DNA of 64,000 nucleotides, from the NCBI GenBank assembly GCA_028873975.1, contig JAPPMO010000052.1, forward strand, positions 60,764 through 124,763, written 5' to 3'. Source of the stretch: Chloroflexota bacterium. GTDB taxonomy: Bacteria; Chloroflexota; Anaerolineae; Aggregatilineales; Phototrophicaceae. This document shows positions 2,715-18,207 of the stretch, piece after piece (position 1 is the stretch's first letter; every line of letters starts with the position of its first letter). The position numbers were made by a program, and so were the translations under genes. The notes below the pieces were generated by a model. The model was not told the DNA's origin. It saw only the letters and a list, made by a program, of their open reading frames with translations, and did not search any database.

Positions 2715-2787
2715 ATACTCCCAAAGCAATCCCGCGGCGCTTTCAGGTCCGCAAGCGCCGCTAATGCGGCTGTTGCGCAGAAATAAA

Positions 2788-4452
2788 TCATTCTATCATG
2801 ATGCTGCCTAGCGGCACGCGCGCGTCAAGCCAGAGCCTGCCATCCGCTTGCCTGGCCCGCACACGCTCTTGATCGCGGGCGCGATACAGCCCGGTAAAGA
2901 CGCTGTATCGCCCTGGCGCAAGATCCGCAGGCAGCGCAACCTGCCAGGTTTCACTGTCGGCCAAGCCAGCGTACCAGAGACGGGTTGGCAGGCGCGGTCC
3001 TAGCGGCTGCTGATCATAGACGAACCATTCCCCCGTCTCTTCGCGCCCAAAATGCAGAAACTGTATATGATCTTCGGCGCCGCTTTCGTCGCTGCGCCAG
3101 GAAAAACTGATCTCCAGCGTCTCTCCGGCGATGGCGCGTTCCGGCATGTTGGGGGCATTGAGAACGAACCCGTTGTCAAAGGCTGCCAGCGGAGAGGGCG
3201 GCGGCGCTGGAGAAGCGCTTGGCAAGACCAGCTCGCCCAGGATGACCTGGCTGTCGCCGAGCAGCGGGAGATCGCTCGAGAGCACTTTCTGGCGCGCATA
3301 GTCATCTTCTCGCGGGCGCCAGAGCGTCAGCACAACCCAAAGCGCGCGATTTACCGGCGGCGCCCCCGGCGGGAATGCAATTTCAATCTCCTGAACGTAA
3401 ACTTGAATAAAATTATCGCCAAACAGTTTAGAATGGCGGTCGCGTTTCAGCAAATTATCTCGGCTGGCGACGGCGCCGCCGCTGCTCTGGTCGATCAGAT
3501 GAATCGAATAGCCCAGACCAATGTCAAGCGATGCCCAAGGGTAACTGTAAAGTTTGACCGCTAGCTCTTCATCATCTGCCTCAATATAGTAGCCGTACAA
3601 GTATTCTTCCGATTCAAAGCCAACCAATGCCGGTTGAATGCCGTAGCCGAATTTCTGATAGGGGATATCCGGCACCGGGGATGCGCGGGCGAGCAGGAGG
3701 ATCCAAAGCGCCGGCGCTGCATAAAGCGCGAGCTGAACACGAGGCGCTGGCCTCGGCGCCACCCGGGAAAACTGGCCAAGCAAGGCGATTAGCGCCAGCC
3801 AGACACCGAGGATCTCGAGAGATTCTTCGAAATACTCGGGCGCCAGGCAGCCTCCAACCGGGCGAACGAACCCGATAGCGCCGCAGAAATCCGGCGCCTT
3901 GTCTAACAATAGCCCGCTCGCCGCGGCTATTGACAGACCAAACAAGAGGCATATTTGCCAAATCCATGAGCGGCGTGGCGAGCGGACCGCTACAATGACC
4001 GTCGCCGCCGCCATCGCCGCGCCGACTATCAGGTAATGCCCGCGCAGATTAGGAATGGATGTTCTGAAGTCGAAAAACTCATCCAGACCAAGAAACAGAA
4101 AAACCAGGCTGAGCCCAAGCAAGTAGAGCCGCTGCCAGGCGGGTATCGCCCGCGCCAGCCAAGCGGTGAAGAGCGCAACGAGGCCGACCAGCCCCAGTTG
4201 CGCCGAAGCCAGGGCGCTGGGGATATTCCATTCCGCGTCTAACTTCCAGATCCATTCTTGAAATAGCGACGTTGGGCGGATCGCCAAGGACAAGACGATC
4301 ACCAAGACCTGAGCCGCCAACATGCCAATTGACAATCGCCGGGACGTCGGCGAGAGGGACGGGCTCAGCCGCCTGTATACAAGCAGACACAGGGGGACAT
4401 ACAGCAAAAAGATATAGAGCCAGATCAAGTCTCTGGGTCTGACTTCAAACAT
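2788..4452 (-). CDS. Membrane protein with C-terminal soluble beta-rich domain, paralog 1
   Basis: 554 residues, ATG at 4452. Same architecture as 1053-2714: eight predicted helices in the first 265 residues, LDEFFDF and EESLEILG acidic motifs next to helices, then a soluble half that contains AFDNGFVLNAPNMPERA and ends with WLDARVPLGSIMIE, closely matching the neighbour (FDNGF, WLDARVRLGMLIIE). The triplet therefore arose by tandem duplication. It is the first of the three to be transcribed and lies 91 bases beyond the stop of the fused ABC ATPase, so it could be co-transcribed with it. No known family is recognised; a role in envelope assembly or signalling is a guess only. Confidence 0.8.
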   Translation of the reverse strand: MFEVRPRDLIWLYIFLLYVPLCLLVYRRLSPSLSPTSRRLSIGMLAAQVLVIVLSLAIRPTSLFQEWIWKLDAEWNIPSALASAQLGLVGLVALFTAWLARAIPAWQRLYLLGLSLVFLFLGLDEFFDFRTSIPNLRGHYLIVGAAMAAATVIVAVRSPRRSWIWQICLLFGLSIAAASGLLLDKAPDFCGAIGFVRPVGGCLAPEYFEESLEILGVWLALIALLGQFSRVAPRPAPRVQLALYAAPALWILLLARASPVPDIPYQKFGYGIQPALVGFESEEYLYGYYIEADDEELAVKLYSYPWASLDIGLGYSIHLIDQSSGGAVASRDNLLKRDRHSKLFGDNFIQVYVQEIEIAFPPGAPPVNRALWVVLTLWRPREDDYARQKVLSSDLPLLGDSQVILGELVLPSASPAPPPSPLAAFDNGFVLNAPNMPERAIAGETLEISFSWRSDESGAEDHIQFLHFGREETGEWFVYDQQPLGPRLPTRLWYAGLADSETWQVALPADLAPGRYSVFTGLYRARDQERVRARQADGRLWLDARVPLGSIMIE

Positions 4453-4543: not shown

Positions 4544-6709
4544 CTACGGCAGTTGGCGCTTGAGCTTGGGCGAATCTCGATATTCGCCGTAGAGGTGGCA
4601 TTGAGCCCCGTGTTCGTTCTCGTCGATGATTTGCGGCGGGCGGACTGTGAGGCAGGCTTCCATCGCGTCGGGGCAGCGCTGGGCGAAGGGGCAGCCGATA
4701 AACTGCTCGGTGGGGCGGGGAACGCCTTCCTGTATTCGCAGGGGCGGGTTTTCAATGGTGGGGTCGGGCACCGGCACAGCCGCGATCAGCGCTTTTGTAT
4801 AGGGATGCTGGGGATTGTTGATGACCTGGTCGCTGGGACCGATCTCGACAATCTCTCCCAGGTACATGATAGCGATGCGGTCGCAGGTGTATTGCAGCAG
4901 CGACAGATCGTGCGAGATATAGACTGTCGCCAAACCCAGCTCGCGCGCCAGGCGACGGGTGGTGTTCAAGATGCCGGCGCGCACCGATACATCAAGCATC
5001 GAGACCGGTTCGTCCGCAACTAAAAAGTCGGGATGCAATACCAGCGCCCGCGCCAAGACCACGCGCTGCAGCTGGCCGCCCGAAAGTTGGTGCGGGTACT
5101 TGTCGAGGAAGACTTCGGCCGGGCGCAAATTGACGCGATCCAGCGTTTCGATCACGCGATCCAGGCGCTCGTTCTCGTCCTTCCATCCGTGAATAATGAG
5201 CGGCTCGGTCAGCGAGCGATAGAGCGTGAAGCGCGGATTAAGCGCCTCGAAGGGGTTCTGGAACATCAACTGGACGCGGCTGCGGAAAGCCAGCAAGGAA
5301 TCGTCATCCATGCCAGCCAGGTCTGCGCCGTCAAAGATGATTTCTCCGTCGCTGGCGTCGATCAGCTTCACCAACAGTTTGCCCGTGGTCGATTTGCCGC
5401 AGCCGGATTCACCCGCCAGCCCCAGGCTCTCTCCCCGTTTTAGCGAGAAGGAAATGTTGTTGACGGCGTAAAGCGTCTGCTCTTTGTCGCCGCGCAGCAG
5501 ACCCGCCAAGCCGCCGCCGATCTTGAAGCGTTTGGACACGTCCCGCATCTCGAGCAGGATGTCGCTGTTTTCCTCCCCCCTTCCCCCTGCCCCTTCCCCC
5601 ACAGGGAGGGAAGGCGTGATCGTCCCAGCACTGAGAGAGGGTTGTATAAGCCCCTCCCTCTCGGGGAGGGGGCTAGGTGTTGGGGCAAAGCCCTGCGCCA
5701 CTTCGACGCGCTGCCACAGGGACGGGTCTTCCGATTGAACGCGCAGGGCATCCATCTCGTTGGAGCGCAGGCAAGCGGCGGCACGGCCCTCGCCGATCGC
5801 TTCCAGTTGCGGGTCACTGTCGTGGCATGCCTCCTGCACGAAGGGGCAGCGTTCAGCGAAACGGCAGCCGCTTGGCGGTTCGCGCAGGTCCGGCGGATAC
5901 CCTTCGATGGAAACGAGCACATCGCGCGGACGCGCCAGATTCGGGAAGGCTTGCTGCAAGCCAAGGCTGTAAGGATGAGCGGGCGAAGAAAAGAAAGGTT
6001 CGGCGGCGGCTTGCTCGACAATGCGCCCGGCGTACATCACCGAAACTGAATCGCAGACTTGCGCCACCACCGAGATATCGTGGGTGATGAGCATGACCGT
6101 CAGGTTGAGTTCCTGCTCCAGCTCGCGCAGCACCTCCAGGATTTGATGCTGCACGATGACGTCGAGCGCGGTAACCGGTTCGTCAGCGATCAAGAGGCTC
6201 GGCTCCAGCGCCAGCGCCATCGCGATGACGGCGCGCTGTTTCATGCCGCCGGAGAACTCATGCGGATAATGACTAAGCCGCTCGGTATCCAAGCCGACCA
6301 GGTCAAAGAGATCCGCCGCCCGCTTCAGCGCGGCTTTTTTGCTGTATCCGCCGCGCACCCGCAGCAGCTTTGTCAGTTGACTGCCGACGCGCTGTACTGG
6401 ATTGAGCGAATCCATCGAGGCTTGCGGAATCGTAGCGATCTCCCGCCAGCGCAGTTGCCGCATCTCGGCCGGCGGCAATTGCAGCAGATCCATGCCTTTG
6501 AACAATATCTGGCCGCCGGCAATCCGTCCGTTGCGCGGCAGCACCTGCACAATCGCCTTGAGCAGCGTGGTCTTGCCGCAACCCGATTCGCCGATTAAGC
6601 CGAGGCGCTGCCCCTCTTCGAGATCAAGCGAAACGCCGTCAACCGCCTGTACAGTCCCGTCCTGTGTGGCGTAGTTGACGCTCAGATCGCGGATGGAGAG
6701 GATGGTCAT
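4544..6709 (-). CDS. Fused double peptide ABC transporter ATPase (DppD-DppF type)
   Basis: 721 residues carrying two complete ATP-binding cassettes. Cassette 1 (about residues 1-335) has Walker [10 protein letters not shown], signature FSGGMKQR, Walker B LLIADEP and an oligopeptide C-terminal cysteine segment (CRFAERCPF). Cassette 2 (about 383-721) has [24 protein letters not shown] and CPFAQRCPD. Both look catalytically intact. DppD and DppF are usually separate proteins of about 330 residues each. The linker at about residues 340-380 is encoded by an intergenic-type repeat (5571-5690). I chose the ATG at 6709 because the upstream ATG at 6760 lies in repeat DNA; a GGGTGGGGGA stretch precedes the chosen start. 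It is the only peptide-type ATPase in the window and may energise all three permease sets. Confidence 0.93.
5571..5690. repeat. BIME-like G-rich palindromic repeat pair inside the ATPase gene
   Basis: Two oppositely oriented G-rich palindromes (around 5595-5612 and 5650-5672) of the kind found between genes elsewhere in this window lie inside the coding frame of 4544-6709, exactly at the junction of the two ATPase domains. Read on the minus strand they encode a Pro/Gly/Ser-rich linker ([10 protein letters not shown] and [11 protein letters not shown]). Confidence 0.8.
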
Positions 6710-7102
6710 GGTCGCAAAATCCCCCACCCGAAACTCCTCCCCCAAGATGAGGGAGGGCATGAGAGGATTGAAAATCGCGCATTTCTTAAGGCCAACCCCA
6801 CCCCCCAGCCCCCTCCCCGAAGCATCGGAGAGGGGGAGCGCTCCATTAGAAGATGGGATTTCATGTTCATTTTCGCGTCTTTCCGCAAGTAAAATCCCAA
6901 TTTCGATGACGAGTCACCCTTCCCTGATGCTTCGGGGATGGGCCGGGGATGGGGTAGAAAAAAACCTGTCATGTTTTCAGCCCAAGATAAGGCAAGGGCT
7001 TTCGTCGATTCATCTAATGGCAACAGGATCGCCTCTTCCTTCCTTGTGGGAGCTAGGGTTGGCAGCACATAGTATAGACATTAATGTTTCCTCAGCGCTT
7101 GA
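6710..7102. repeat. Intergenic repeat cluster between ATPase and DppC-type permease
   Basis: The gap of about 390 bases holds no gene. It contains a G-rich palindromic copy at 6718-6757, a BIME-like pair at 6794-6963 whose outer ends are inverted (CCCCACCCCCCAGCC on the left, GGCCGGGGATGGGGTAG on the right), and a degenerate copy near 7030-7060. The centre of the left hairpin is CCGAAGCATCGG at 6817-6828. These hairpins may act as transcription attenuators or mRNA stabilisers between the permease and ATPase genes, but no classic T-run terminator is visible. Confidence 0.75.
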
Positions 7103-8095
7103 CTACATCCGCCGCAGACGCGGGAAGAGCACTTCCTCATAACCCCGCCCGATAAAGAATCCCGCCATCACCGTCAGCATGATGCAGAGCCCGGGCGGCA
7201 CAATCCAATAAAAAGCCTCGCGCGAAAGCGCCAGGGAGTTGAAGGCGTCTTGCAGCATGAAACCCCAACTAATCGTCTCCGGGTCACTGAAGCCCAGGAA
7301 GCTCACGCTCGCTTCGGTCAAGATGGCCCAGGCAATGGCGAAGGAGCCATAGAGAAATGACAGCGGCAGAATGCTGGGCGCGATATAGACAAAAATGATG
7401 CGCAGGTCGCTGGCGCCGGACACCCGCGCCGCGCTGACGAAGGCTTGTTCTTTGATCACCAGCACTTGCGAGCGGATGACGCGGCCCGTATCGCGCCACA
7501 AGAGCAGCGCCATGGCGATGACGACATTCCAGATGCTGGGATCGAAAAAAGCGGAGATCACGATGATGAAAGGGATGAAGGGGATGCCAAAAGCGACGTC
7601 AGCCGCCCGCATCAGGATGGTGTCGATCCAGCCGCCGTAATAGCCGGCCAGCAAGCCGATCACCGTGCCGATGACCGCCACCGCCGCCGCCGCGGAAAAA
7701 CCGACCAAAAGCGCCGAGCGCGAGCCGTGGATCAATTGCGAATATATGTCGCGCCCGATATTGGTGGTGCCGAGCAAGAAGGTGTTGCTATAGCCCTCGG
7801 CTTCGTCTTCTCCCGGTTCGGCCAGCCAATAGGGCATCGCGTCCTTGATCCAATCGCCTTCGTTGTTCTTGAGCGGGTTTAGCGGGTCGTTCGGGGCAAT
7901 TTGCGGCGCCAGTATCGCCACGACGGCGAAAACTGCGAAGATGAAGAGGCCAAAGAGCGCCATTTTGTCTCGCTGAAATACCTCGAGGTTCGTCTCCCAA
8001 AGTTGACGGATAGCGGAGCCCTGCCGGAAGCGCGCCGTCGCCTTGCCGGACTGCCCCTCACGCGCCATCGCTTCTTGCTGCATTTCTATTTTCAC
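7103..8095 (-). CDS. Peptide ABC transporter permease, DppC/OppC type
   Basis: 330 residues, GTG start at 8095 preceded by AAAGGG. The N-terminal cytoplasmic stretch is followed by one helix, an extracytoplasmic loop containing GTTNIGRDIYSQLIHGSR (the usual GTDxxGRD motif of OppC proteins), then five helices. The EAA-loop equivalent is AFVSAARVSGASDLR near residue 210. The protein forms the inner-membrane channel with the DppB-type partner at 9577-10587. Unusually, the partner is separated from it by a restriction-modification pair; the stop of the restriction gene is only 9 bases upstream. Substrates are probably di- or oligopeptides. Confidence 0.92.
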   Translation of the reverse strand: MKIEMQQEAMAREGQSGKATARFRQGSAIRQLWETNLEVFQRDKMALFGLFIFAVFAVVAILAPQIAPNDPLNPLKNNEGDWIKDAMPYWLAEPGEDEAEGYSNTFLLGTTNIGRDIYSQLIHGSRSALLVGFSAAAAVAVIGTVIGLLAGYYGGWIDTILMRAADVAFGIPFIPFIIVISAFFDPSIWNVVIAMALLLWRDTGRVIRSQVLVIKEQAFVSAARVSGASDLRIIFVYIAPSILPLSFLYGSFAIAWAILTEASVSFLGFSDPETISWGFMLQDAFNSLALSREAFYWIVPPGLCIMLTVMAGFFIGRGYEEVLFPRLRRM

Positions 8096-8104
8096 CTAAA
8101 CCCT

Positions 8105-8797
8105 TTAATGCCTGTTTAGTAGCTCTTGAACCAAATTGCGGATTTGCGGTATCCGCAGCAATTCGCTGACAAAGTATCTTACATTTGCTGGCCTATCCGC
8201 GCTACGTGTTGCAACTATCTCGTCATAGTCTAGCTCCAGCAACTCGCAGAATTCACGTCCTGTCATGGTTTCAGAAAGTTCTATCTTTCTCTTAAAACCG
8301 TCATAAATGACCGTCTTATCATCCTGATTAAACGCGCAGAAATGTGTAGAGATCATGAATGGAAGATGCAAAGCATTTCGTTCGATAAACGTATGTAGAG
8401 CAGTGTGTTCTGCAGCAGCCTTTTTGGTATCAAACACATGACCATCTTTCAGCTCTATAATGTGGCACCGTTGTTTCCCCTCGCGCCGCTTAAAGACCAT
8501 AAAATCTGGCTCAGCCCCTTTATATTTCAGTGTTTTGGATTTCTTGATTTGTTGTTTGGTAGCAAGAAAAACACCCTCGGGCATTACATCTTGGTGCAGG
8601 AAAGTATCAAGATTGTCTACAGTCTCTACCATGGACGTTATAAGTCGTTCTAGTTCGCTGCCGGAAGATATGACTGTAGACTGGACTTTGCTCATTAAAA
8701 GTCCGAGCTCAGGTATTCCGAATAATCTGTCATATCCACCCGAGACATTTTTGGGGTTAGCGTCCTTAAGCTTTGCCATCATCCCTCCAAATCGCAT
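8105..8797 (-). CDS. Probable type II restriction endonuclease (PD-(D/E)xK fold)
   Basis: 230 residues. A PD-(D/E)xK nuclease core is visible: E96-P97-D98, then E115-L-K117 in the strand CHIIELKDG, followed by a helix with H131. Family assignment comes mainly from the neighbour: the start overlaps the end of an adenine- or cytosine-N4-type methyltransferase (8779-9531), the standard arrangement of type II systems. The ATG at 8797 has no clear Shine-Dalgarno; alternative ATGs at 8782 and 8779 overlap the methyltransferase stop as TGATG and follow GGAGG closely, so translational coupling is likely. Base composition is visibly more AT-rich than the flanking transporter genes, which suggests horizontal transfer. 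Recognition site unknown. Confidence 0.7.
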   Translation of the reverse strand: MRFGGMMAKLKDANPKNVSGGYDRLFGIPELGLLMSKVQSTVISSGSELERLITSMVETVDNLDTFLHQDVMPEGVFLATKQQIKKSKTLKYKGAEPDFMVFKRREGKQRCHIIELKDGHVFDTKKAAAEHTALHTFIERNALHLPFMISTHFCAFNQDDKTVIYDGFKRKIELSETMTGREFCELLELDYDEIVATRSADRPANVRYFVSELLRIPQIRNLVQELLNRH

Positions 8798-9531
8798 CCA
8801 ATAAAGTTTCGATTCCGCAGCATGGCGGAATCCATTACCGAAAACGATCCTGCGGCAGGGTCAACAATGAAATCACCTTCGTTACTGACTGCCGAAATTA
8901 GTCTACTCTGTAATTCTGTGGGCTTTTGATGTGGATGCTTCTTTGTCCCGACTTTTTCGCGCCAGACATCAGGAATATCGTGTATCCGCCAGACACCTTT
9001 TGCTCGCTTCGGGGATTTCTGCAAGACAACACAATACTCGCTGACCCGTCGAGTTCTATATCCCATTCCCATTCTGCCTTTATCCCAGGTGATTAAGTCG
9101 ACAACTTCAAGTTGCGTTCCATTGAACCATTGACGAAAGTCTTGACAGAGATGGTACTTGTCTATCCACAAGAATAGATGCCCGGAGGGTATAAGAGCCC
9201 GATTGATACCATCGACAAAATCACGAATTGTATCTTCGTCCATTTGCAAGAGTTCACAGCGGCGTTTTCCTCGCTTGATGCCTTCGTTGCCATAAGCCAA
9301 CTTGTCTAGCACCCCTCTATACTGTGGGTCGAAGAATACTACTGGAATGGTCGCCTCAGGAATAAATTCCAGCAACGATCGACCATCCATCTTGAGTCTG
9401 ATGTTGGGAACTATCTCCTTGGGCAGCAAGAAATTGGGAGAGACCAGGTCGCGCGACGAAGCGAATACAGAATTCACGCCATTTACGTTAGTATCATTGG
9501 TTAGCTCGAACATAGGCAATGCTTTGGTCAT
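8779..9531 (-). CDS. Type II DNA methyltransferase, beta class (N6-adenine or N4-cytosine)
   Basis: 250 residues, ATG at 9531 with a strong AGGAGG nine bases upstream. The catalytic motif IV is DPQY at residues 68-71. The target-recognition region follows, then KHPHQKP (198-204) and the AdoMet-binding motif I DPAAGSF (224-230) near the C-terminus; this order is that of beta-class amino-methyltransferases. DPQY in place of DPPY is an uncommon variant. It protects host DNA against the adjacent endonuclease. The gene begins 45 bases after the stop of the DppB-type permease and, like its partner, has lower GC than its surroundings. Activity is likely; whether the product is m6A or m4C cannot be told here. 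Confidence 0.88.
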   Translation of the reverse strand: MTKALPMFELTNDTNVNGVNSVFASSRDLVSPNFLLPKEIVPNIRLKMDGRSLLEFIPEATIPVVFFDPQYRGVLDKLAYGNEGIKRGKRRCELLQMDEDTIRDFVDGINRALIPSGHLFLWIDKYHLCQDFRQWFNGTQLEVVDLITWDKGRMGMGYRTRRVSEYCVVLQKSPKRAKGVWRIHDIPDVWREKVGTKKHPHQKPTELQSRLISAVSNEGDFIVDPAAGSFSVMDSAMLRNRNFIGCDLEG

Positions 9532-9576: not shown

Positions 9577-10587
9577 TCAAGAGACCTGCGCCTGCGCCGA
9601 TGCCCCCACGCGCGGGTCGAGCAGGCTGTACAAGATATCGGCGATGAAATTCATAAATACGATGATAAGCGCGATGAAGAAAAAGGCGCCCTGCGCCAGG
9701 GGATAATCGGCTTGCTGGACCGCCCGCACCAGCGTCCGCCCCAGCCCGGGCCAAGAGAATACGTGTTCAATCACCACATTGCCGCCGATGCTGTAACCGA
9801 TGCCCAGCGTCAGCGCGGTCAGCACCGGCAGCATGGCGTTGCGGGCCGCTGTCTGGATCATCACCCGCCACTCGCTATAGCCGGCCAGCCGACTCATCGT
9901 GACATAGTCCTGGTCCAGCACTTCCAGCATGTTCGAGCGCATCAGCAGCAGCGGCAGCCCGTGCAAATAAAGCGCCAGCGTGAAGGTCGGCAAGATCATG
10001 TGCCGCCAGAAGACCGGCGACATCAACTTGTCCCATTCCGTTTCCCAGCGATAGCGCACGATAGCCGGACCGATGCCGGAAGACGGCAGCAGTTTCAATT
10101 GGAAGGCGAAGAACGTCAGCAATAACATGCCCACCCAGAATTGCGGCGCCGCCCGCGTCATCAGCGTGAAAGTGGTGCCGACGCGCTCCAGCAGGCTGCC
10201 GCGCAGCGCCGCCATGGCGATGCCCCCCAGCACCCCCACGGCATACGCCAGCAGCAAAGAACTCAAGGTCAAATAGATCGTGTTTGGCAGGTCCGCGCGC
10301 AGGATGTCCATGACGCTCTTGCCGGAATAGCTAAAGGTTTCGCCCAGATCGAGTTTGAGCAGATTAAACAAATAAATGATATATTGTTCGCCCAGCGGCT
10401 TGTCGAGGCCAAAACGCGCCAGCAGCGCCGCTTCCTGCTGCTTGGTAAAGTTGATGTCGATGTAGCTGGCCAAGGGATTGCTCGGCGCCAAGCGAAACAG
10501 CAGGAAGAGCAGGGTGACTATGATCCAGAGCACCATGACGCTCTGCAAGAAACGCCCCAGGATGTAATAGACGACGCCGCGGTTCAT
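9577..10587 (-). CDS. Peptide ABC transporter permease, DppB/OppB type
   Basis: 336 residues from the ATG at 10587, chosen over an in-frame upstream start because AGAGGA lies six bases before it and the upstream DNA is a repeated hairpin. Six transmembrane segments are visible: the first at residues 10-30, the DppB-typical FRLAPSNPL loop after it, and the EAA-loop YVTMSRLAGYSEWR around residue 230. It ends with the conserved LLDPRV motif seen in DppB permeases. Partner of the DppC-type protein at 7103-8095 and of the binding protein at 11005-12726. Inner membrane. Confidence 0.92.
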   Translation of the reverse strand: MNRGVVYYILGRFLQSVMVLWIIVTLLFLLFRLAPSNPLASYIDINFTKQQEAALLARFGLDKPLGEQYIIYLFNLLKLDLGETFSYSGKSVMDILRADLPNTIYLTLSSLLLAYAVGVLGGIAMAALRGSLLERVGTTFTLMTRAAPQFWVGMLLLTFFAFQLKLLPSSGIGPAIVRYRWETEWDKLMSPVFWRHMILPTFTLALYLHGLPLLLMRSNMLEVLDQDYVTMSRLAGYSEWRVMIQTAARNAMLPVLTALTLGIGYSIGGNVVIEHVFSWPGLGRTLVRAVQQADYPLAQGAFFFIALIIVFMNFIADILYSLLDPRVGASAQAQVS

Positions 10588-11004
10588 TTCGTTCCTCTGC
10601 AAGTAGCTTGCAGGGGCGACCAATCTGGTCGCCCGCCGCCACAGTGAATTGTGCTTTCGGGCGACTTGCTAAGTCGCCCACTATAAGGCTTGTCCGCTAC
10701 TTCAAGCGCTAGCGCGTTTTTTCTACCCCATCCCCCGGCCCCTTCCCCGTAGCAACGGAGAAGGGGAGCTAACGTAGTGCAAGCTCGCTTGAAAACAGCA
10801 GTTATCGACGCTTGCATCAACAGAAAACTTGCGTTGACGCAACGTCGAAACAAGCTTCCCCCCATTGCTATGGGGGGATTGAGGGGGGTAGACCAAAGGC
10901 GGAAGCGAATCACCACAATACCAGACAAGCCCTACATTTTCTATGGAAGGGGGCCGCAGCCCCTTCCCACCGGTTAAACTTCCTGCGTTATTCAGCAAGT
11001 AGGC
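10588..11004. repeat. Intergenic hairpins and BIME-like repeat between binding protein and permease
   Basis: No gene. From right to left in the transcribed direction: a BIME-like G-rich pair at 10721-10892 (left hairpin centre CCGTAGCAACGG at 10747-10758, right hairpin CCCATTGCTATGGGG near 10860), and a cluster of perfect palindromes at 10597-10679. These include CTGCAAG/CTTGCAG, GGGCGACC/GGTCGCCC at 10614-10634 and GGGCGACTT/AAGTCGCCC at 10659-10679. Hairpins after a binding-protein gene often keep its transcript in excess over the permease transcript; that role is inferred. Confidence 0.75.
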
Positions 11005-12726
11005 CTACGGGTAAAGCAGTCGTCCGTCGTCGCCCCAGCTGTAGCCGGCGCCTTCCAGCAAGGCGCGCGCGCCCTCGATGCTATAGTCATAGGTCGGCAG
11101 ATCTTCGCATTGACGCCAGTATTCCAGCGCGGCCGAGACGAAGCTGTCCGCTGGCGCGGCCAAGCCATTGAAGATGTTGTCAATGATGAACTGCTGCGGG
11201 ATGGAATGCGCGACCGCCTGACGGAAAGTTACATCGTCAAAGGGCGCGTAACGCACGTTGAAGGCGAAGTAGTTGAAGCCGATGCTGATGGCCGAGAACA
11301 GATCGAGATGCTCGTTGTCCGCCACGATTTGCTGCAGCACGCCGGGATCACCAGGCCACTCCCAGAGGAAGTTCATCTCGCCGGACTGGATCTGACCCAG
11401 CGTCGCTTCCTGGTTCGGCAGCACGTTCATGATCCAGGCATCGATCTTGGGCCGCGCCCAATGGTCATCGAAAGCCTCGAGGAAGACGAACTCGTTCACG
11501 TCAAAGGCGATGTACTTGAAAGGACCAGAGCCGATCGGCGTCTCTTCCTGGATGCTATCGACATCGGCATCGTCCTGCTCCAGCAGGTCGTTGATGATCG
11601 GTTCCCAGATATGCTTGGGAATCAAGTTCAGCTTGGCCAGCGAGCTGGTCTCGAAGGCCGCTGAGGGTGTGTTCAGCGTGAAGCGCAGCGACAGGTCGTC
11701 GATGATCTCGATGTTGGCGACATTGCGGGCGAAGGGATGGTAATCCGGCGCTTCGGGACGGAACTCTTCGTTGCCTTCCTCGTCGGTCTGAGTGGTGCCG
11801 GCCAGCGCCGCTTCGAAGGAATAAGCGGCATCATCGGACAGCACATCTTCGCCGTCATGCCATTTCATGCCCGCGCGCAGGGTGACGACCACGTTCAGCG
11901 GGTCTTCCCAGACCACGCTCTCAGCCGCCCAGGGCTCGGCCACGCCAATGGGATTGATGCGCATCAGGCGGTCCCAGGTCATCTCGGTAACGCGGCTGGG
12001 CGCGTCGCCGGCGATCTCCAGCGGGTTGAAGGAATTCAGGAAGGAGGTCGTCGAGGTGATCAGCGTCTTGTCATCGGTAGTCGGCTCGATGCCGATCCAG
12101 GTCCAGAAGTTGTGTACGCCGATGCCAGCCTGCGTCGTGATGCTATCTGGATTGAAGACAGCGGTATTGACGACCTGCGGCGTGAGCGGGTGAATGAAGT
12201 AGGCGTTGACCATGTCGTTGCGGATGATCTGCTGCGCCTCGCAGATGATATCCAGGCGCGCTTCCTTGTCAGCCACTTCCACGCGCTGCGCTTCTGCCAG
12301 GGCGTCGTAGTCGGGATTGTTATAGCCGACAAAGTTGTAACCGCCGTCGCGGACGCTGGAATGGAACAGGTTGTAAGTGAACTCGTCCGGATCCGAGCGT
12401 TCGGGGCGGCCCACCATGCGCCAGTGCGTCATCTGGAAGGGACGCTCGGCGCGGCCTGCGCCTTCGACGCGGCTGTACCAGATCTCGTCAATCAACTGCG
12501 CCCAAGGGATGGCGCGGTGTTCAACTTCCAGCCCCAGTTCGCGCATATTCTCGACGACCAGGCGTGTGGTCTCATATTCGATCGGGCGCTCCGCCTGCGT
12601 CACCGAATGCACGATGATCGGCGGCACAGCTTCGCCCGCGCTCTGCGACGATACCGGCACAACCGCTATCATCACCAGGGCGAGCAAGGCGGCAATCACT
12701 GAAATTCTTGCCAGTTTTCTGCTCAT
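11005..12726 (-). CDS. Peptide-binding protein, family 5, with apparently permuted domain order
   Basis: 573 residues, ATG at 12726 after GGAG; an upstream in-frame start lacks a better site. A signal peptide occupies about residues 1-28, without a lipobox cysteine. Family 5 motifs are present but in swapped order. Residues 50-215 look like the usual C-terminal part: RLVVENMRELGLEVEHR, then NNPDYDALAEAQRVE and EARLDIICEAQQIIRND. Residues 216-573 look like the usual N-terminal and middle part: RLMRINPIG, LRAGMKWHDGEDV, TPIGSGPFKY, DDVTFRQAVAHSIP. The chain stops at EGARALLEGAGY, which normally precedes the piece found here at the N-terminus. The two other family 5 proteins in the window keep the normal order. 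Secreted, it would feed the permeases downstream. Confidence 0.85.
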   Translation of the reverse strand: MSRKLARISVIAALLALVMIAVVPVSSQSAGEAVPPIIVHSVTQAERPIEYETTRLVVENMRELGLEVEHRAIPWAQLIDEIWYSRVEGAGRAERPFQMTHWRMVGRPERSDPDEFTYNLFHSSVRDGGYNFVGYNNPDYDALAEAQRVEVADKEARLDIICEAQQIIRNDMVNAYFIHPLTPQVVNTAVFNPDSITTQAGIGVHNFWTWIGIEPTTDDKTLITSTTSFLNSFNPLEIAGDAPSRVTEMTWDRLMRINPIGVAEPWAAESVVWEDPLNVVVTLRAGMKWHDGEDVLSDDAAYSFEAALAGTTQTDEEGNEEFRPEAPDYHPFARNVANIEIIDDLSLRFTLNTPSAAFETSSLAKLNLIPKHIWEPIINDLLEQDDADVDSIQEETPIGSGPFKYIAFDVNEFVFLEAFDDHWARPKIDAWIMNVLPNQEATLGQIQSGEMNFLWEWPGDPGVLQQIVADNEHLDLFSAISIGFNYFAFNVRYAPFDDVTFRQAVAHSIPQQFIIDNIFNGLAAPADSFVSAALEYWRQCEDLPTYDYSIEGARALLEGAGYSWGDDGRLLYP

Positions 12727-12845
12727 GATTCGTTTTTCTCCATTTCTTCGTTTTCTTGACAATTGACAGTCGATTCAAGTTCAGCGGCGCCTCCTTCAAT
12801 TGCAATTCAATTCCTCAAATCTGAGAACGGGACTATGCGTATCTG

Positions 12846-13937
12846 TTAAACTACCGATAAATGCCCGATTCCGTCAACATGCGATATTGCCGCCTGTGGC
12901 GACATGGCATCCAGGCGCTTGATCAGCGCTTCCGCTTCTTCGCCTTTCAGCAACGCCGGATTGCCCAGGTCGTCCAGCAGGACAGGAACCAGACGATACG
13001 CGATTTCGCCCTCGTCGTCCAGTTCCGCGACGACGATGAGCGATTCCGACCAATTGCGATCCCGGCGCGCCAGGCTCAGTCCATAAGGCGCGTTGCGGCT
13101 GACGGGCGTCTCGGCAGCCGGTCCCTGGTTGTGATGAAAGACAAAATTGCCCAAACTGTAAAAGATCGGTTTGCCTTTGTAGATCTCGACTTCGCCCAGC
13201 GAATGCGGATGATGCCCGACGATGACATCCGCGCCGGCGTCGATCAGCGCGTGGCCGACCTCGATCTGATAATCCGCCAATCCATCCTGAAAGCGCGAAC
13301 GCCAGAAGGGCGGCACGCCCCAGTGCATGGCCACGACGATCAGATCCACGTCATACAAAACTGCCTCGATAGCGGCAAGCGCGCGCTCAATATCTTCCTG
13401 CCAGGCCCGCGTATGCACATAAGGGGCGCTGCCCGGCTGCTCCATACTGGCGTGGGGATCAACCGCGTAGGATTCCGAGACGTGGATCGGCGCCACGCCC
13501 GGGCGGTCGGGCCCCGCCGCCGAGAGCGGACCCAGCGTCGAAGCCGCGCCCAAGAAAGCCACATCGAAATCGCCCTTGCCAACGATCTTGGCTTCCCAAG
13601 CCAGATCGATAGTCAGTCCCGCGCCGACATAGGTCAGGTCCCGCTGGACAAAATGCGTCAAGGTGTCCACGAAGCCGTATTCGCCGTAATCCATCATGTG
13701 ATTGTTGGCCAGCGTCAAGACGTGGAAACCCATAGCCGTCACATCGTCCAGCAGATCCGGGGGCATACGCATGTTGATCCATTTTTCAATCGGCTCGCCG
13801 CCTTTGGTGACCGGGGTTTCCAGGTTGCCAAAGGCGAAGTCGGCCGACTTGAGCGCGTCAATAACTTCCGCCATTGCGCTGTTGTCGGGCAGGGGCTGCT
13901 GCAAGAATATGTCGCCCACCATCGCTACTGTAGCCAT
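12846..13937 (-). CDS. CapA-like metallophosphoesterase-fold protein
   Basis: 363 residues, ATG at 13937. It matches the CapA / poly-gamma-glutamate synthesis protein family: AMVGDIFL at residues 5-12, NLETPVT near 38, ANNHMMDYG near 76, MHWGVPP, GHHPHSLGEVE and FYSLGNFVF. These are the metal-site signatures of a calcineurin-like phosphoesterase fold. CapA proteins are usually membrane-anchored; here no signal peptide or helix is visible, so a cytoplasmic hydrolase is more likely than capsule synthesis. It lies 14 bases beyond the stop of the amidohydrolase at 13952-15151 and is probably co-transcribed with it. The substrate is not evident. Confidence 0.85.
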   Translation of the reverse strand: MATVAMVGDIFLQQPLPDNSAMAEVIDALKSADFAFGNLETPVTKGGEPIEKWINMRMPPDLLDDVTAMGFHVLTLANNHMMDYGEYGFVDTLTHFVQRDLTYVGAGLTIDLAWEAKIVGKGDFDVAFLGAASTLGPLSAAGPDRPGVAPIHVSESYAVDPHASMEQPGSAPYVHTRAWQEDIERALAAIEAVLYDVDLIVVAMHWGVPPFWRSRFQDGLADYQIEVGHALIDAGADVIVGHHPHSLGEVEIYKGKPIFYSLGNFVFHHNQGPAAETPVSRNAPYGLSLARRDRNWSESLIVVAELDDEGEIAYRLVPVLLDDLGNPALLKGEEAEALIKRLDAMSPQAAISHVDGIGHLSVV

Positions 13938-13951
13938 TGTCTTGCTGAGTC

Positions 13952-15151
13952 CTAAACTCTCGCGCCGCCTTTGTAAACGGCGGCGATATCGCGCAGGTTG
14001 CTGATATTAACCAGCGGATCGCCATTGAGCAGCAGCAGATCCGCGTATTTGCCCGCTTCTACCGTGCCAATCTCGTCATCCCAGCGCAAGACCTTGGCGT
14101 TGTTGCGCGTCCCGATACAGATCGCTTCCATGGCGGTCAAGTCATTCTCCACCAGCAGTTCCAGCTCGCGGGCCATGCTGAAGCGATGCGGCGCCAGGGG
14201 ATTGCCGCCGGCGTCGGTGCCGCAGCCCAAAAAGACGCCCTTGGCGCGGGCCAGAGCGATGGTCTGGCGGATCTGCTTGACGCCCTGCTCGATCATCGGT
14301 TTCCGCCGCTCGGCATCGGCTTTTTGCACCGGACTCAGCGGATAGCTCTCCAAATCGGGATTGCCCACGCCAACGGTCAGCACCAGTTCTGCGCCGTTCG
14401 CTACCATCATATCGGCTGTTTCTTCATCGAGGTAGGTGCCGTGTTCGATCGAGTCGACGCCGCCCAGCATGCAATTGCGGATGCCGCCGGTGCCGTGACA
14501 ATGCGCCGCCACCGTGCGCCCCATCATGTGCGCCACTTCGGTCACCGCGCTGATTTCCTCGACGGTGAGCTGGCTGGCGTGGATGTCCTGCCCGGGCGTG
14601 GCGCTGCCGCCGGTCGCCATCAATTTGACGATATCGGCGCCGGCTTTGATCTGCTCGCGCGCGGCTTTGCGCATCTCGTCCGGACCATCGGCTTCGCGGG
14701 CGATGAAGTGGGCATGCCCGCCGGTCATGGAAATGACGCGACCGGACAGCTTCATGCGCGGTCCTTGGATGAAGCCGCGGTTGATGGCATTGCGCAGCGC
14801 CATCTCGATGTATTGTTCGCCGCCGACATCGCGCACGGTCGTGACGCCCTGCGACAGCACGCGCTTGCAGATATCCACCGCCTCCAGCACCAGCTCATCG
14901 CGATGCTTTTCGAGCAGGGCGAAGACGCTCTCTTCGCCGTTGTAGCAGATGTGAATGTGGGCGTCGATCAAGCCGGGCAAAAGCCACTTGCCGCTGACGT
15001 CGATCTGTTCGCAGTCTTGCGCCGCCGCGGGCAGGTCGGCCGCGGACCCGACCCAGGCGATGCGCTCGCCTTCCACATATACGGCGGCGTTCGTCAGCGG
15101 CTCGCCTCCGTTTCCGTCGATGAGCGTTGCGCCGGTGAGTACAAATTTCAT
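13952..15151 (-). CDS. Metal-dependent amidohydrolase (imidazolonepropionase/prolidase-like)
   Basis: 399 residues from the ATG at 15151, which has GGAGGAGAAGG just upstream; a more distant start would lie in repeat DNA. The amidohydrolase (PF01979) metal site is complete: DAHIHI near residue 64, a candidate bridging lysine in DIVKLMATGG near 182, AAHCHG near 218, SIEHGTYL near 239 and GTDAGG near 312. The flanking beta-sandwich (TLIDGNGGEP at the start, KYADLLLLNGDPL at the end) is typical of cytosolic Xaa-Pro dipeptidase or imidazolonepropionase-like members. Together with the peptide transporter it probably hydrolyses an imported peptide or cyclic amide. Exact substrate unknown. Confidence 0.88.
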   Translation of the reverse strand: MKFVLTGATLIDGNGGEPLTNAAVYVEGERIAWVGSAADLPAAAQDCEQIDVSGKWLLPGLIDAHIHICYNGEESVFALLEKHRDELVLEAVDICKRVLSQGVTTVRDVGGEQYIEMALRNAINRGFIQGPRMKLSGRVISMTGGHAHFIAREADGPDEMRKAAREQIKAGADIVKLMATGGSATPGQDIHASQLTVEEISAVTEVAHMMGRTVAAHCHGTGGIRNCMLGGVDSIEHGTYLDEETADMMVANGAELVLTVGVGNPDLESYPLSPVQKADAERRKPMIEQGVKQIRQTIALARAKGVFLGCGTDAGGNPLAPHRFSMARELELLVENDLTAMEAICIGTRNNAKVLRWDDEIGTVEAGKYADLLLLNGDPLVNISNLRDIAAVYKGGARV

Positions 15152-15170
15152 TACCTTCTCCTCCATTTCC

Positions 15171-15210
15171 AACCCCACCCCCGGCCCCTCCCCGAAGCAT
15201 CAGGGAGGGG
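15171..15210. repeat. Single G-rich palindromic repeat
   Basis: One unit of the window's REP-like family, with the CCCCACCCCCGGCCCCTCCCC arm shortened in print to its core CCCCTCCCCGAAGCATCAGGGAGGGG-type hairpin at about 15186-15210. It lies between the racemase and amidohydrolase genes. The rest of the gap to 15311 shows nothing recognisable. Confidence 0.7.
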
Positions 15211-15311: not shown

Positions 15312-16079
15312 CTAATTCTTGCTGTGATACAAATCCGCCGGCGACGATGCCAAGCCAGATGCGATCTTGGGCGGTGTCATGTAGGCGCGTTTGGAATGGC
15401 TCAAGCCGCTGCCCAGCATCGCTTCCATGAATTTCAGCTGCACCCGCGCCGGATTCAAGAAAGGCACCCCCAGTTCGGCCTGGCAAGCTTCGGGGATCTC
15501 CAGAAAGCCCATGCTCATGCAGCCGACGATCAGGGTATCGGCGCGGTCTTCCTTGATGGCTTTGCGTCCCTCTTCGATTGTAACCTCAATGGCTTGTTCG
15601 CGGTCGCGGTGCAATTCCAGCACCGGGATGTTCACCGCGCGGACGCTGGCCAGTTTATCGCCGCCGCCGCTGTTGCGCATCGTTTCTTCCAGCGGTCCGA
15701 TGACGCTGTCAGTCACCGTGATGACCGAGTAACGCCGTCCCAGCGCCGATGCCATGAGCGCGGTCGCTTGTCCCGCGCCCACCACGGGAATATCGACCAT
15801 TTCCCGCAGCGCGCCCAAGCCGGGATCGCCATAGCAGCCCAGCAAGATGCCGTCCCAACCGTCGGCTTGCAGTTCATGCGCCTTCTTGACCGTTTCCGGG
15901 ATGGACAGATATTCTTCGTACATGCTCTCGATGGAGCCGGGACCAGCCGGGATGTCAGTGATATCGACTTCGGTATGCGGCGCGGCGAAGCGCTGCAAAT
16001 ACTCGCGCCGCCGGCCGAGCTCGGCTTGACCTTCGGGACTGCGCCCCATGGGACCGGATACGAGGTAGATGAGTTTCAT
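15312..16079 (-). CDS. Aspartate/glutamate/hydantoin racemase family protein
   Basis: 255 residues, ATG at 16079. The two cysteines expected for a two-base cofactor-independent racemase are present: LLGCYGDPG near residue 82 and IVGCMSMG near 190, each at the end of a beta strand, as in hydantoin and Asp/Glu racemases (PF01177). The length fits the family. It sits in the same transcription direction as an M28 peptidase-like gene upstream and an amidohydrolase downstream, so racemisation of an amino acid or amino-acid derivative released from a peptide is plausible. The ectoine-utilisation protein EutA belongs to the same superfamily, but nothing specific supports that identity here. Confidence 0.85.
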   Translation of the reverse strand: MKLIYLVSGPMGRSPEGQAELGRRREYLQRFAAPHTEVDITDIPAGPGSIESMYEEYLSIPETVKKAHELQADGWDGILLGCYGDPGLGALREMVDIPVVGAGQATALMASALGRRYSVITVTDSVIGPLEETMRNSGGGDKLASVRAVNIPVLELHRDREQAIEVTIEEGRKAIKEDRADTLIVGCMSMGFLEIPEACQAELGVPFLNPARVQLKFMEAMLGSGLSHSKRAYMTPPKIASGLASSPADLYHSKN

Positions 16080-16252: not shown

Positions 16253-18025
16253 TTAAATCTTTTCCAGGGCGGCGCGGGCGATATTCGCCGACGTCTCAAA
16301 AGCCCAAGCCACGCGATTGACGCCGCGCAGCAGATGCGTGCGCGTGACGCGGCGCATGTGATGATCGGCCTCGGCCAGGTCCAGCGCCGGCGCCAGATCG
16401 GGCAATTCCGGCACGCGCACGGCCGGCTCGTTGCGGAAGCGCCCTTTGCGCGTGTAGTTGATCAGCACCAGTTCCCGCGCCATGCCCAGCAGGGCGTCGT
16501 TGTAAGCGCGGACGCGCGGATCGTCAACGGCGGCATCGGCCAGCCCGGCTGACTCGGCATACAGACCGTCGAGCGCATCATTCAAGTCGGCCAGCGCCGC
16601 ATAGGCGGGACCGAAGTCCGCGTCCGCGCCGGCCGCGGACGCGTATTTGTCCAGGGTCGCTTTGAACTCGGCGGCCAGATCGCGGAAGTCATAGGGATGC
16701 AGCGGGTTGTTGAGCAGGCGCTGCAGCGCGGTGGCATAGACCCGCAGGTCCCGCATCAAGTTGTCTTTGTCGGCGATCTCCAAGGTATCATTTTCCGTAT
16801 GCCAGGCGATATTGGCGCCGCAGCCGCCGACCCCGTAAAAGCCCATTTCATCGATTTTCGCTTGGGGCATCGACGAGAGCAGCATGAACAGGCTCGAGAT
16901 GCCGATGTTATTGAAAGAATAGTCGCCGGCTTGATGCGGTCGGTCGCCGCTGAAGCCCTTGCCGGTGGAGTCCTTGACGGAGGTCGCCGCGAATGCTTCT
17001 ACCTCGCTCATGACCGTGACGCCGCGATATTCTGTCGCCCAGCGACAGCCGGGCGAATCGATATTCATCTGCGCCACGCAATCTCGCGCCAAGTCGAGCC
17101 CGAAGGCGTCGGCGTACCAGGTCGAGGCGCCGTAGCGGCCGGTGGAATGCCCGGACCACCAAGCCACGCGCAGGCTGCGCGCCATGCCGTCTCGATTGTC
17201 CTGGAAGATGCGAGCCAGTTCCAGCAGGGTGGCGTCGCCGACGGCGTTGTCGCCGATGCCGACATCCCAGGAATCGAGATGGCCATGCACCAGCACGAAA
17301 CGCTCCGGCTCGATGTTTCCCTTGATCTCCGCCACCAGGCAAGGGCACTCGAACCAGCCCTCTTTCAGTTCAGTGTGCAAGGTGACATTGAGCGCGCCCT
17401 GTTCCATCTGTTTCAACAGGTCTTCGCCATCGGGGCGATTGATCGAAAGGACCGGGATGGTCGGCTGGCGATGATAATTGTCCAGGTCGGGCGCGCCCCA
17501 GATGGTCGTGCAAATGCCCCAGTGGATGTCGACGCCGGGGTTGATGAAGATTGCGCCCTTCGCGCCTTTATTCTGGAAATACCAGACCGGCGGCGGACCG
17601 CCAAAGCCATCGACCACCACGATCTTGCCCTCGACATCCACATCGGTCGTCGGCGAGAAATCGAAGAAGTCGACGCTGCGTCCGGCGGCGAAACCTTCAA
17701 TGCGGACAGCCTCCCCGCTGATGCCGCCAGCCGGCGTGCTGATGGAAAAGCCGGGCGTTTTGGCGTGATAAGATTTGCCGCCCGCGGCCAGCGACGCGCT
17801 GACCGGCACGCTCAAGAAAAGCTCCGGCATGTGCATGGTGTGGGGGACGCCCAGCGCCGACAAGCGCTCGGCGATGTAGTTGAAGGCTGTCCGCTCGTCC
17901 TCGGACGACGATTCGCGCACCAGGCTGGTGAAACGTTCGATCAATGACCAAGGCTCGCGCGAGTCCAGCGCATCGAGCAAACTGTTTTCCAGATCGGCCT
18001 GCTTGGATTCGTAAAGTGCTTGCAT
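16253..18025 (-). CDS. M28-family peptidase-like protein with PA-type insert
   Basis: 590 residues from the ATG at 18025, which follows GGAGG by 11 bases; a TTG start 24 bases upstream is less likely. A protease-associated-like domain is suggested between about residues 90 and 235 (GKIVVVDGFGG, AKGAIFINPG). The M28 core begins with VHGHLDSWDVGIGDNAVGDA around residue 245, supplying the His and Asp ligands. The next motif reads WWSGHSTGRYGAS, where M28 peptidases normally have the Glu-Glu pair of general base and zinc ligand. Later motifs (QMNIDSPG, HTENDT) are present. No signal peptide. It is either a subfamily with altered catalysis or an inactive relative; first gene of the minus-strand block. 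Confidence 0.85.
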   Translation of the reverse strand: MQALYESKQADLENSLLDALDSREPWSLIERFTSLVRESSSEDERTAFNYIAERLSALGVPHTMHMPELFLSVPVSASLAAGGKSYHAKTPGFSISTPAGGISGEAVRIEGFAAGRSVDFFDFSPTTDVDVEGKIVVVDGFGGPPPVWYFQNKGAKGAIFINPGVDIHWGICTTIWGAPDLDNYHRQPTIPVLSINRPDGEDLLKQMEQGALNVTLHTELKEGWFECPCLVAEIKGNIEPERFVLVHGHLDSWDVGIGDNAVGDATLLELARIFQDNRDGMARSLRVAWWSGHSTGRYGASTWYADAFGLDLARDCVAQMNIDSPGCRWATEYRGVTVMSEVEAFAATSVKDSTGKGFSGDRPHQAGDYSFNNIGISSLFMLLSSMPQAKIDEMGFYGVGGCGANIAWHTENDTLEIADKDNLMRDLRVYATALQRLLNNPLHPYDFRDLAAEFKATLDKYASAAGADADFGPAYAALADLNDALDGLYAESAGLADAAVDDPRVRAYNDALLGMARELVLINYTRKGRFRNEPAVRVPELPDLAPALDLAEADHHMRRVTRTHLLRGVNRVAWAFETSANIARAALEKI

Positions 18026-18207
18026 ATTCGGTGATTCCTCCGTTTTCAAGTTCAGCCCGCGCCTGCCGCAGCCTGCGAAGATGACAAGGTCGAGCGAACT
18101 AAGTTATAGTCAGTGAGCGCTATTGTAACAAACCATTGGCGCCAGTTGCGAGTCGCGGGCAACACTCTATTCTTTATAGCAGGGAAGAAAATGTGAGGCG
18201 CGCAGCC

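Follow-up and report, generated by a model that had tools for sequence, protein, structure and literature searches.

A family 5 solute-binding protein of swapped segment order in a Chloroflexota transporter operon, and its permuted relatives

The locus and its neighbors

The window, by which we mean the whole stretch of DNA analyzed here, is 64,000 nucleotides long and comes from a Chloroflexota bacterium. It carries a gene for a solute-binding protein of family 5 (SBP_bac_5, Pfam PF00496; hereafter the window protein), followed by genes of a Dpp-type transporter. The features that matter for the argument are these.

4544-6760, minus strand: fused DppD-DppF-type ATPase, with two ABC_tran and two oligo_HPY stretches
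7103-8095, minus strand: DppC-type permease (domain matches)
9577-10623, minus strand: DppB-type permease (domain matches)
11005-12726, minus strand: 573-aa family 5 solute-binding protein with the type 1 permutation, read from the ATG at 12726
11005-12762, minus strand: the same open frame from an in-frame TTG at 12762, upstream of the ATG, 585 aa
11008-12084, minus strand: ordinary N-terminal and middle part of the fold, residues 227-585, with its end GYSWGDDGRLLYP at the cut point (Pfam and profile matches)
12076-12093, minus strand: seam of the old C- and N-termini, residues 226/227, NFWTWIGIE followed by PTTDDKTLI, with no long linker
12085-12642, minus strand: moved segment (residues 41-226), which in ordinary members forms the C-terminal part of the fold and here is N-terminal (phmmer and profile matches)
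12643-12726, minus strand: signal peptide region, residues 13-40 (MSRKLARISVIAALLALVMIAVVPVSSQ), with no lipobox cysteine (read from the sequence, and by lipobox pattern scan)
12846-13937, minus strand: PGA_cap family protein, upstream, kept in near relatives
13952-15178, minus strand: amidohydrolase, upstream; the nearest NCBIfam model is Xaa-Pro dipeptidase, below its cut-off
15312-16079, minus strand: Asp/Glu/hydantoin racemase family protein, upstream
16253-18049, minus strand: M28 family peptidase with a PA domain, upstream
44043-45629, plus strand: control, family 5 binding protein in ordinary order (Pfam and profiles)
55199-56791, minus strand: control, family 5 binding protein in ordinary order (Pfam and profiles)

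Residue numbers of the window protein are counted from the TTG at 12762, and the ATG at 12726 is the likely start codon. The N-terminus is hydrophobic and signal-like, as read from the sequence alone. A pattern scan reports a lipobox in 13 of the 38 permuted proteins introduced below (the one in L159 is probably false), and none in the window protein. Motifs of the ordinary C-terminal third had been described near the N-terminus in a preliminary description of the locus, and RLVVENMRELGLEVE, NNPDYDALAEAQ, and EARLDIICEAQQI are indeed found at residues 67-180; the chain also stops at the cut point, as had been described, its C-terminal end being EGARALLEGAGYSWGDDGRLLYP. In the permuted proteins L107, L108, L109, and L119-L121 an extra tail (LYPKGQVETL and similar) runs past the cut, possibly a remnant of a tandem duplication.

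The gene had also been placed in a complete transporter operon, and the DppB- and DppC-type permeases and the fused ATPase are all there downstream. In 37 fetched contexts of permuted genes, of which some are short, matches to the window's genes are found for DppB in 34, for DppC in 32, and for the ATPase in 32; L091 has no Dpp gene within 8 kb downstream. As for the upstream genes, M28 is matched in 20 contexts (one partial), the racemase in 21 (one at 26%), and the amidohydrolase in 18, exclusively Chloroflexota ones. M28 and the racemase occur in Chloroflexota, Nitratireductor, and Microvirga, and M28 alone in Roseomonas and Ketogulonicigenium. None of the three is present in the fetched contexts from haloarchaea, Maritalea, the second Nitratireductor copy, or most of the divergent Chloroflexota.

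Two observations on the operon stand apart. A DNA methylase (N6_N4_Mtase) and a 230-aa gene with no Pfam match lie between dppB and dppC (8105-9531, minus strand); the two permease genes are adjacent in 8 of the 9 near relatives compared (L069, L070, L071, L078, L081, L086, L088, and L092), and the ninth, L083, has a methylase between them, at 72% identity. Farther on, downstream of the transporter, are genes for proteins of 558 aa (1053-2729, minus strand) and 554 aa (2788-4452, minus strand), neither with a Pfam match at 0.001; most near relatives compared have them in this place too. The two are apparently related to each other, given their common match places in several loci.

Segment order against ordinary receptors

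The window protein had been described as a circular permutation of a family 5 binding protein, for which an ordinary profile should match in two swapped pieces. We observe exactly this pattern. An ordinary profile, built from 29 presumed ordinary proteins without the window protein, aligns its positions 382-518 with residues 55-204 (E-value 6e-22), and then its positions 44-367 with residues 233-580 (6e-68).

The Pfam family itself is recognized well above threshold: PF00496 scores 190.1 bits against a curated cut-off of 32.4. Two PF00496 hits in reversed order had been anticipated, and this part of the expectation is borne out only in so far as one family matches in two stretches; a position is given for the better stretch alone, residues 276-580 on profile positions 3-284 of 368. 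The mature protein used as a Pfam query gives a single PF00496 stretch at an E-value of 0.001.

Against solved structures, a phmmer search places residues 279-576 on positions 62-338 of CtaP (5isu), and residues 123-185 on positions 404-461. The second piece is weak by itself, with i-Evalues of 0.41, 0.09, and 12 in the three alignments shown. Such values would suit a fusion, in which an unrelated or partly related N-terminal domain had been added to a truncated receptor that lost its true C-terminal third. A family profile gives a very different picture. We constructed a permuted profile from an alignment (A2) of 26 divergent permuted proteins, the window protein among them, all 26 of which match PF00496 at an E-value of 0.001 or better. 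On AppA (1xoc), profile positions 184-513 align with chain positions 23-348 (3.6e-61), and profile positions 8-151 with chain positions 359-497 (1.4e-15). The moved segment is also found on the ordinary C-terminal part of DppA (i-Evalue 3e-14) and of CcNikZ-II (1.7e-13). Two swapped stretches appear in all five structure alignments shown (AppA, CtaP, CcNikZ-II, DppA, and 5u4o), and none of the best 60 solved structures shown is matched by the whole permuted profile in one stretch. The gap between the two pieces on AppA is 349-358, so that the cut removes about 10 residues.

Is the order a property of the family or of one sequence? We assembled 38 permuted proteins (a set that leaves out L118), chosen for a long single match with the window protein. 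The permuted profile matches 38 of 38 as one piece, partly by construction, since many of these proteins are rows in that profile and all were chosen for that long match. The real test is the match to the ordinary profile, and all 38, the window protein included, are swapped in it, with positions of about 382-518 first and 44-367 second; the weakest match of an N-terminal segment has an E-value of 2e-8. Conversely, when the 29 presumed ordinary proteins are compared with the permuted profile, 21 are swapped (L003, to which we return, is one of them), 6 match in one piece, and 2 match in two collinear pieces. The window protein and the rest of the 38-member set thus depart from the ordinary SBP_bac_5 segment order, and the swapped order is kept in orthologs.

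Selection bears on the fusion as well. Over six orthologs dN/dS is 0.045-0.101 for the moved part and 0.056-0.123 for the rest (one dS exceeds 1), and both halves are under strong purifying selection. No single collinear match over the full length was obtained, and the N-terminal 170 residues or so are homologous to the ordinary C-terminal part rather than to some other domain. Given that homology in the profile matches, which all 38 proteins share, we reject the fusion of an unrelated domain, and we regard fusion in its broader form as highly improbable.

Both ordinary receptors in the window, at 44043-45629 and 55199-56791, had been suggested as controls, and by Pfam and by the ordinary profile they are in ordinary order. 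Their C-terminal pieces match the permuted profile weakly, at 3e-3 and 2e-4, respectively.

The permutation can also be undone in silico. With the window protein rotated back and used as a query in the class, all nine listed non-permuted rows become single matches at 27-32% identity; eight of the nine span about 470-510 of the 545 residues, and one covers only 16-417. The same query breaks into two pieces in 6 of the 7 listed permuted genomes, the remaining one (G250) showing one of its pieces. Among 60 plasmid records listed, 17 hold permuted relatives in two or three pieces, and the other 43 match in one piece in all except H112; of those 43, L143, L144, and L145 were fetched and confirmed to be ordinary.

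Distribution, descent, and a second permuted protein

The permuted family is wide but sparse. Among close relatives there are matches in 31 of 61 genomes, the genome of origin included (E-value 1e-60), of which 26 are full length or nearly so and 5 are cut at contig ends. In the taxonomic order we find it in 39 of 154 genomes (8 of 61 genera), and in the class in 22 of 396 genomes (13 of 222 genera), with identity down to 31%. Public genome contigs give 33 loci, 8 of them cut at contig ends, titled Anaerolineae, Chloroflexi, or Chloroflexota except for two of the 33, which are Desulfobacteraceae at 29%. In plasmid records, one place covers at least 80% of the query in 43 of 2662 matching records; the hosts listed are Alphaproteobacteria (Neorhizobium, Microvirga, Nitratireductor, Roseomonas, Ketogulonicigenium, and Maritalea) and haloarchaea. 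Of the 30 plasmid records listed (28 at 80% or more, two at 79%), 29 match in one piece and one, the Neorhizobium record H5, in two. With the Desulfobacteraceae protein as query, 65 of 3235 plasmid records reach at least 80% in one place. A sampled phylum-wide search at an E-value of 1e-110 finds 6 of 345 genomes in the Desulfobacteraceae phylum and 3 of 350 in Chloroflexota, counts which are lower bounds because at most 4 candidates were scored per genome. A viral contig scan for diverse rows gave two partial relatives, at 22% and 29% identity, which were set aside. The permuted order is therefore common to three bacterial phyla and haloarchaea.

This distribution also bears on whether the order could be an artifact, that is, a chimeric contig, a frameshift, or two adjacent genes read as one. 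The genome is a fragmented draft of 119 contigs, the gene is cut at contig ends in five relatives, and the H5 match is in two pieces, all of which would be at home in such an account. Against it, the same order is present in independent assemblies and in plasmid records (Ketogulonicigenium vulgare, Nitratireductor, and Halalkalicoccus) whose annotation treats it as a single gene, and the stop codons reported within some close-relative rows all precede the ATG. Separate assemblies and records of Chloroflexota, the Desulfobacteraceae phylum, Alphaproteobacteria, and haloarchaea all have this order; the artifact is therefore rejected, and we give it practically no weight. In the annotated plasmid records among those listed, the name given to the permuted proteins is simply "ABC transporter substrate-binding protein."

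The contig ends themselves show a regularity. In G005, G011, G015, and G019, from the metagenome series COS4 and RHO1, contigs end at nearly the same position of the gene (residues 257-266), with matches beginning at base 3 of the contigs; strain mixtures in the assembly are perhaps the source of these shared ends.

How many times did the permutation take place? We inferred an unrooted tree of 62 proteins, comprising the 38 permuted ones (rotated back for alignment) and 24 ordinary ones, which leaves out the long-branch ordinary rows L003, L010, L017, L022, and L024. The 38 permuted proteins are one side of one branch, with a bootstrap of 98 and SH-aLRT of 87, and a single change suffices in 99% of 200 bootstrap trees. 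A quick tree of 67 rows has the same permuted clade (SH-aLRT 87). In that quick tree, and in the first ordinary profile, L003 was scored as ordinary, although it is itself permuted; a later ordinary profile was rebuilt without it. The nearest ordinary row to the permuted clade is L134, on a single long branch.

Since the 38 permuted proteins form one clade, a single old permutation event is likely. That the ordinary order is ancestral we infer from how widely it occurs and from what is established about the family; less certainly, an ordinary ancestor would have been permuted a single time, through a tandem duplication whose two ends were then trimmed. The other possibility is that the permuted order arose several times at one loop in different lineages. 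Within the permuted clade the deepest branches are long and support is low at some inner nodes, and the genome holds a second, different permutation, which indicates that more than one permutation of the fold is possible. The single branch recovered in nearly all bootstrap trees argues the other way, as does the arginine discussed below, shared by 37 of the 38 proteins and pointing to common descent. We consider several origins unlikely.

That second permutation is found in L003 (G000:C56:59850-61520; L003:598-2271, minus strand), in the same genome. It has a signal peptide, then a match to ordinary profile positions 152-528, and then one to 55-146. L003 has a single match in each of 35 of the 61 near genomes, its own included, and four genomes outside the genus have it at 45-47% identity. 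The swapped order is retained in all 25 fetched loci of the genus (own included) and in 4 of 4 outside it, and dN/dS over six orthologs is 0.027-0.103. Its neighbors are two Dpp-type permeases and an FGGY kinase on the other strand. In plasmid records the best 15 rows match in two pieces each, at about 30%, and among these 15 there is no wider spread of the L003-type permutation. Thus L003 and the window protein are alike in family, signal peptide, and conservation, and they differ in the position of the cut and in their neighbors.

The genome has 37 PF00496 matches in total, two of which are halves of one gene. Among the thirty of these loci that we fetched, 28 have the ordinary order and 2, the window protein and L003, are permuted, with the caveat that many rows called ordinary by the rebuilt profile also train that profile, so that their single matches are partly by construction. 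Six further matches each cover most of PF00496 in one stretch.

Fold, ligand, and comparison with known receptors

We conclude, with a probability of about 0.92, that the gene product is the extracytoplasmic receptor of a DppABCDF-type ABC importer, with a chain circularly permuted relative to the DppA/OppA fold, as judged from homology and operon context. A family 5 receptor encloses its ligand between two lobes and then delivers it to DppBC. In the permuted receptor, the ordinary N- and C-termini are joined, and new termini are opened within about 10 residues, between ordinary positions of about 348 and 359 in AppA numbering, a place that we take, from the known fold of DppA, to lie in the second lobe. 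The chain would then fold into the ordinary two-lobed clamp, close on the ligand, and pass it to DppBC. The new N-terminus and, where present, the lipid anchor would be attached to the second lobe instead of the first.

Structure prediction addresses this fold in part. A first model is weak (pLDDT 58.8, pTM 0.52, from 27 rows that are mostly near-copies), and its Foldseek search has AppA on top at 2.1e-14. A second model, from 15 rows with fewer near-copies and including fragments of both ordinary window proteins, reaches pLDDT 73.7 and pTM 0.69; as those ordinary fragments are placed by homology in its alignment, it depends in part on the sequence argument. Its pLDDT falls below 50 at model residues 58-66 and 77-106 of the moved segment (counted from residue 41). 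To judge by their names, all 50 Foldseek rows shown for the second model are receptors of the same fold family, with AppA leading at 8.5e-19 and TM-scores over the query of 0.36-0.50. The superposition on a DppA/OppA fold that had been suggested as a check thus retrieves receptors of the same fold, but its sequence-order alignment covers part of the chain, 275-413 columns. Coverage of this extent would follow if the alignment took in mainly the collinear two thirds, and the site where the first segment packs would be outside its reach. The second model opens with a strand and a helix and closes with short strands, which fits a cut between two strands.

Where the moved segment packs distinguishes the receptor just described from a domain-swapped dimer, in which each N-terminal segment would complete the lobe of another molecule. 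A swap is compatible with all the sequence tests, and only a short seam joins the old termini. Set against this, the cut removes only about 10 residues, so that the segment can pack within its own chain, and another permuted receptor, TpMglB-2, is consistent with a monomer according to PMC4990184. We judge a swapped dimer to be quite improbable, and return to the receptor that packs its segment within one chain.

What would such a receptor bind? The strict criterion for a dipeptide receptor, the NCBIfam DppA equivalog, is failed by a wide margin (92.7 bits against a cut-off of 1005). In DppA, Asp436 is given as a ligand residue in PMC12136057. In the loop near that position, an arginine is found in 37 of the 38 permuted proteins versus 1 of 13 ordinary ones that have a letter there, where the residue match is approximate because it was placed by counting in an alignment gapped at that loop. 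Part of the gene neighborhoods is suggestive as well. Three operons, from Nitratireductor, Roseomonas, and Ketogulonicigenium, contain hydantoinase A/B subunits and M20 hydrolases, with M28 genes beside the permuted gene in all three. Haloarchaeal neighborhoods have creatininase and M20; D-aminoacylase, dipeptide epimerase, and M81; or amidohydrolase. The arginine and these neighbors together suggest ligands lacking a free amino group, and we would propose, with low certainty, an amino-acid derivative whose amide is blocked or cyclic (N-carbamoyl, N-acyl, hydantoin-like, or a D-containing peptide). The proposal is weakened by the genes of Maritalea, the second Nitratireductor copy, and Halobaculum, near which there is no hydantoinase, M20, creatininase, or D-aminoacylase. 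Among the papers listed on hydantoin uptake, none bears on the substrate.

More tentatively still, at somewhat less than even odds, these observations may be parts of one account. Family 5 would have been permuted at least twice at different loops. One permutation, ancient and present in three bacterial phyla and haloarchaea, would have persisted because a receptor with its tether and termini on the other lobe is anchored differently and docks differently on the permease, and its clade would have specialized in amino-acid derivatives without a free amino group.

Permuted transport receptors, it had been suggested, would be a notable structural novelty. For family 5 this may stand: we found no report of a natural permutation of a family 5 binding protein in the literature searched, which covers subscription journals thinly, and the conserved permuted clade appears not to have been described there. 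In the accessible text of a review of circular permutation (PMC3320104), neither "binding protein" nor "transporter" is mentioned; that of a 2025 preprint on permutation detection (PMC12667903) has "binding protein" once, for a carbohydrate-binding one, and no periplasmic or ABC-transporter receptor. In PMC2588589, SBP_bac_5 appears only in a domain-versatility table, and circular permutation only in the references. For ABC-transporter receptors in general the novelty does not stand, as TpMglB-2 had already been published (PMC4990184).

A conserved permutation together with a second one at another point, in one genome, amounts to a natural experiment on the position of termini and tether in a clamp-type receptor. 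Family 5 receptors are numerous, as the count in this genome alone indicates, and rearrangements of this kind can escape a core domain model and structure searches that follow sequence order. For biosensor design, they offer cut points already tested by evolution.

Two known systems place the window protein. With receptors of the DppA/OppA/AppA type, which we take to be those called "cluster C," it is homologous over both segments and shares the operon partners DppB, DppC, and DppD/DppF; in contrast to them, it is swapped, has its termini in a loop, and carries an arginine beside a DP motif near the position of DppA Asp436. It shows no sign of membership in cluster B (MglB-like), since PF00496 is the only family matched and the 60 structure hits shown are by name family 5. 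The closest parallel as a rearrangement is TpMglB-2 (Tp0684) of Treponema pallidum, described in PMC4990184 as a natural circular permutation of a cluster B ABC-transporter receptor that binds ligand, for which a subclass "cluster Bc" was proposed. Its relatives are said there to be probably tethered, and the tether idea was raised for it by Brautigam and colleagues (PMC4990184). Like the window protein, TpMglB-2 is, on that account, a natural permutation of a binding protein of an ABC transporter; unlike it, TpMglB-2 has the sugar-binding type I, or cluster B, fold, and what has moved in it are the first three strands of the N-lobe, to the end of the chain.
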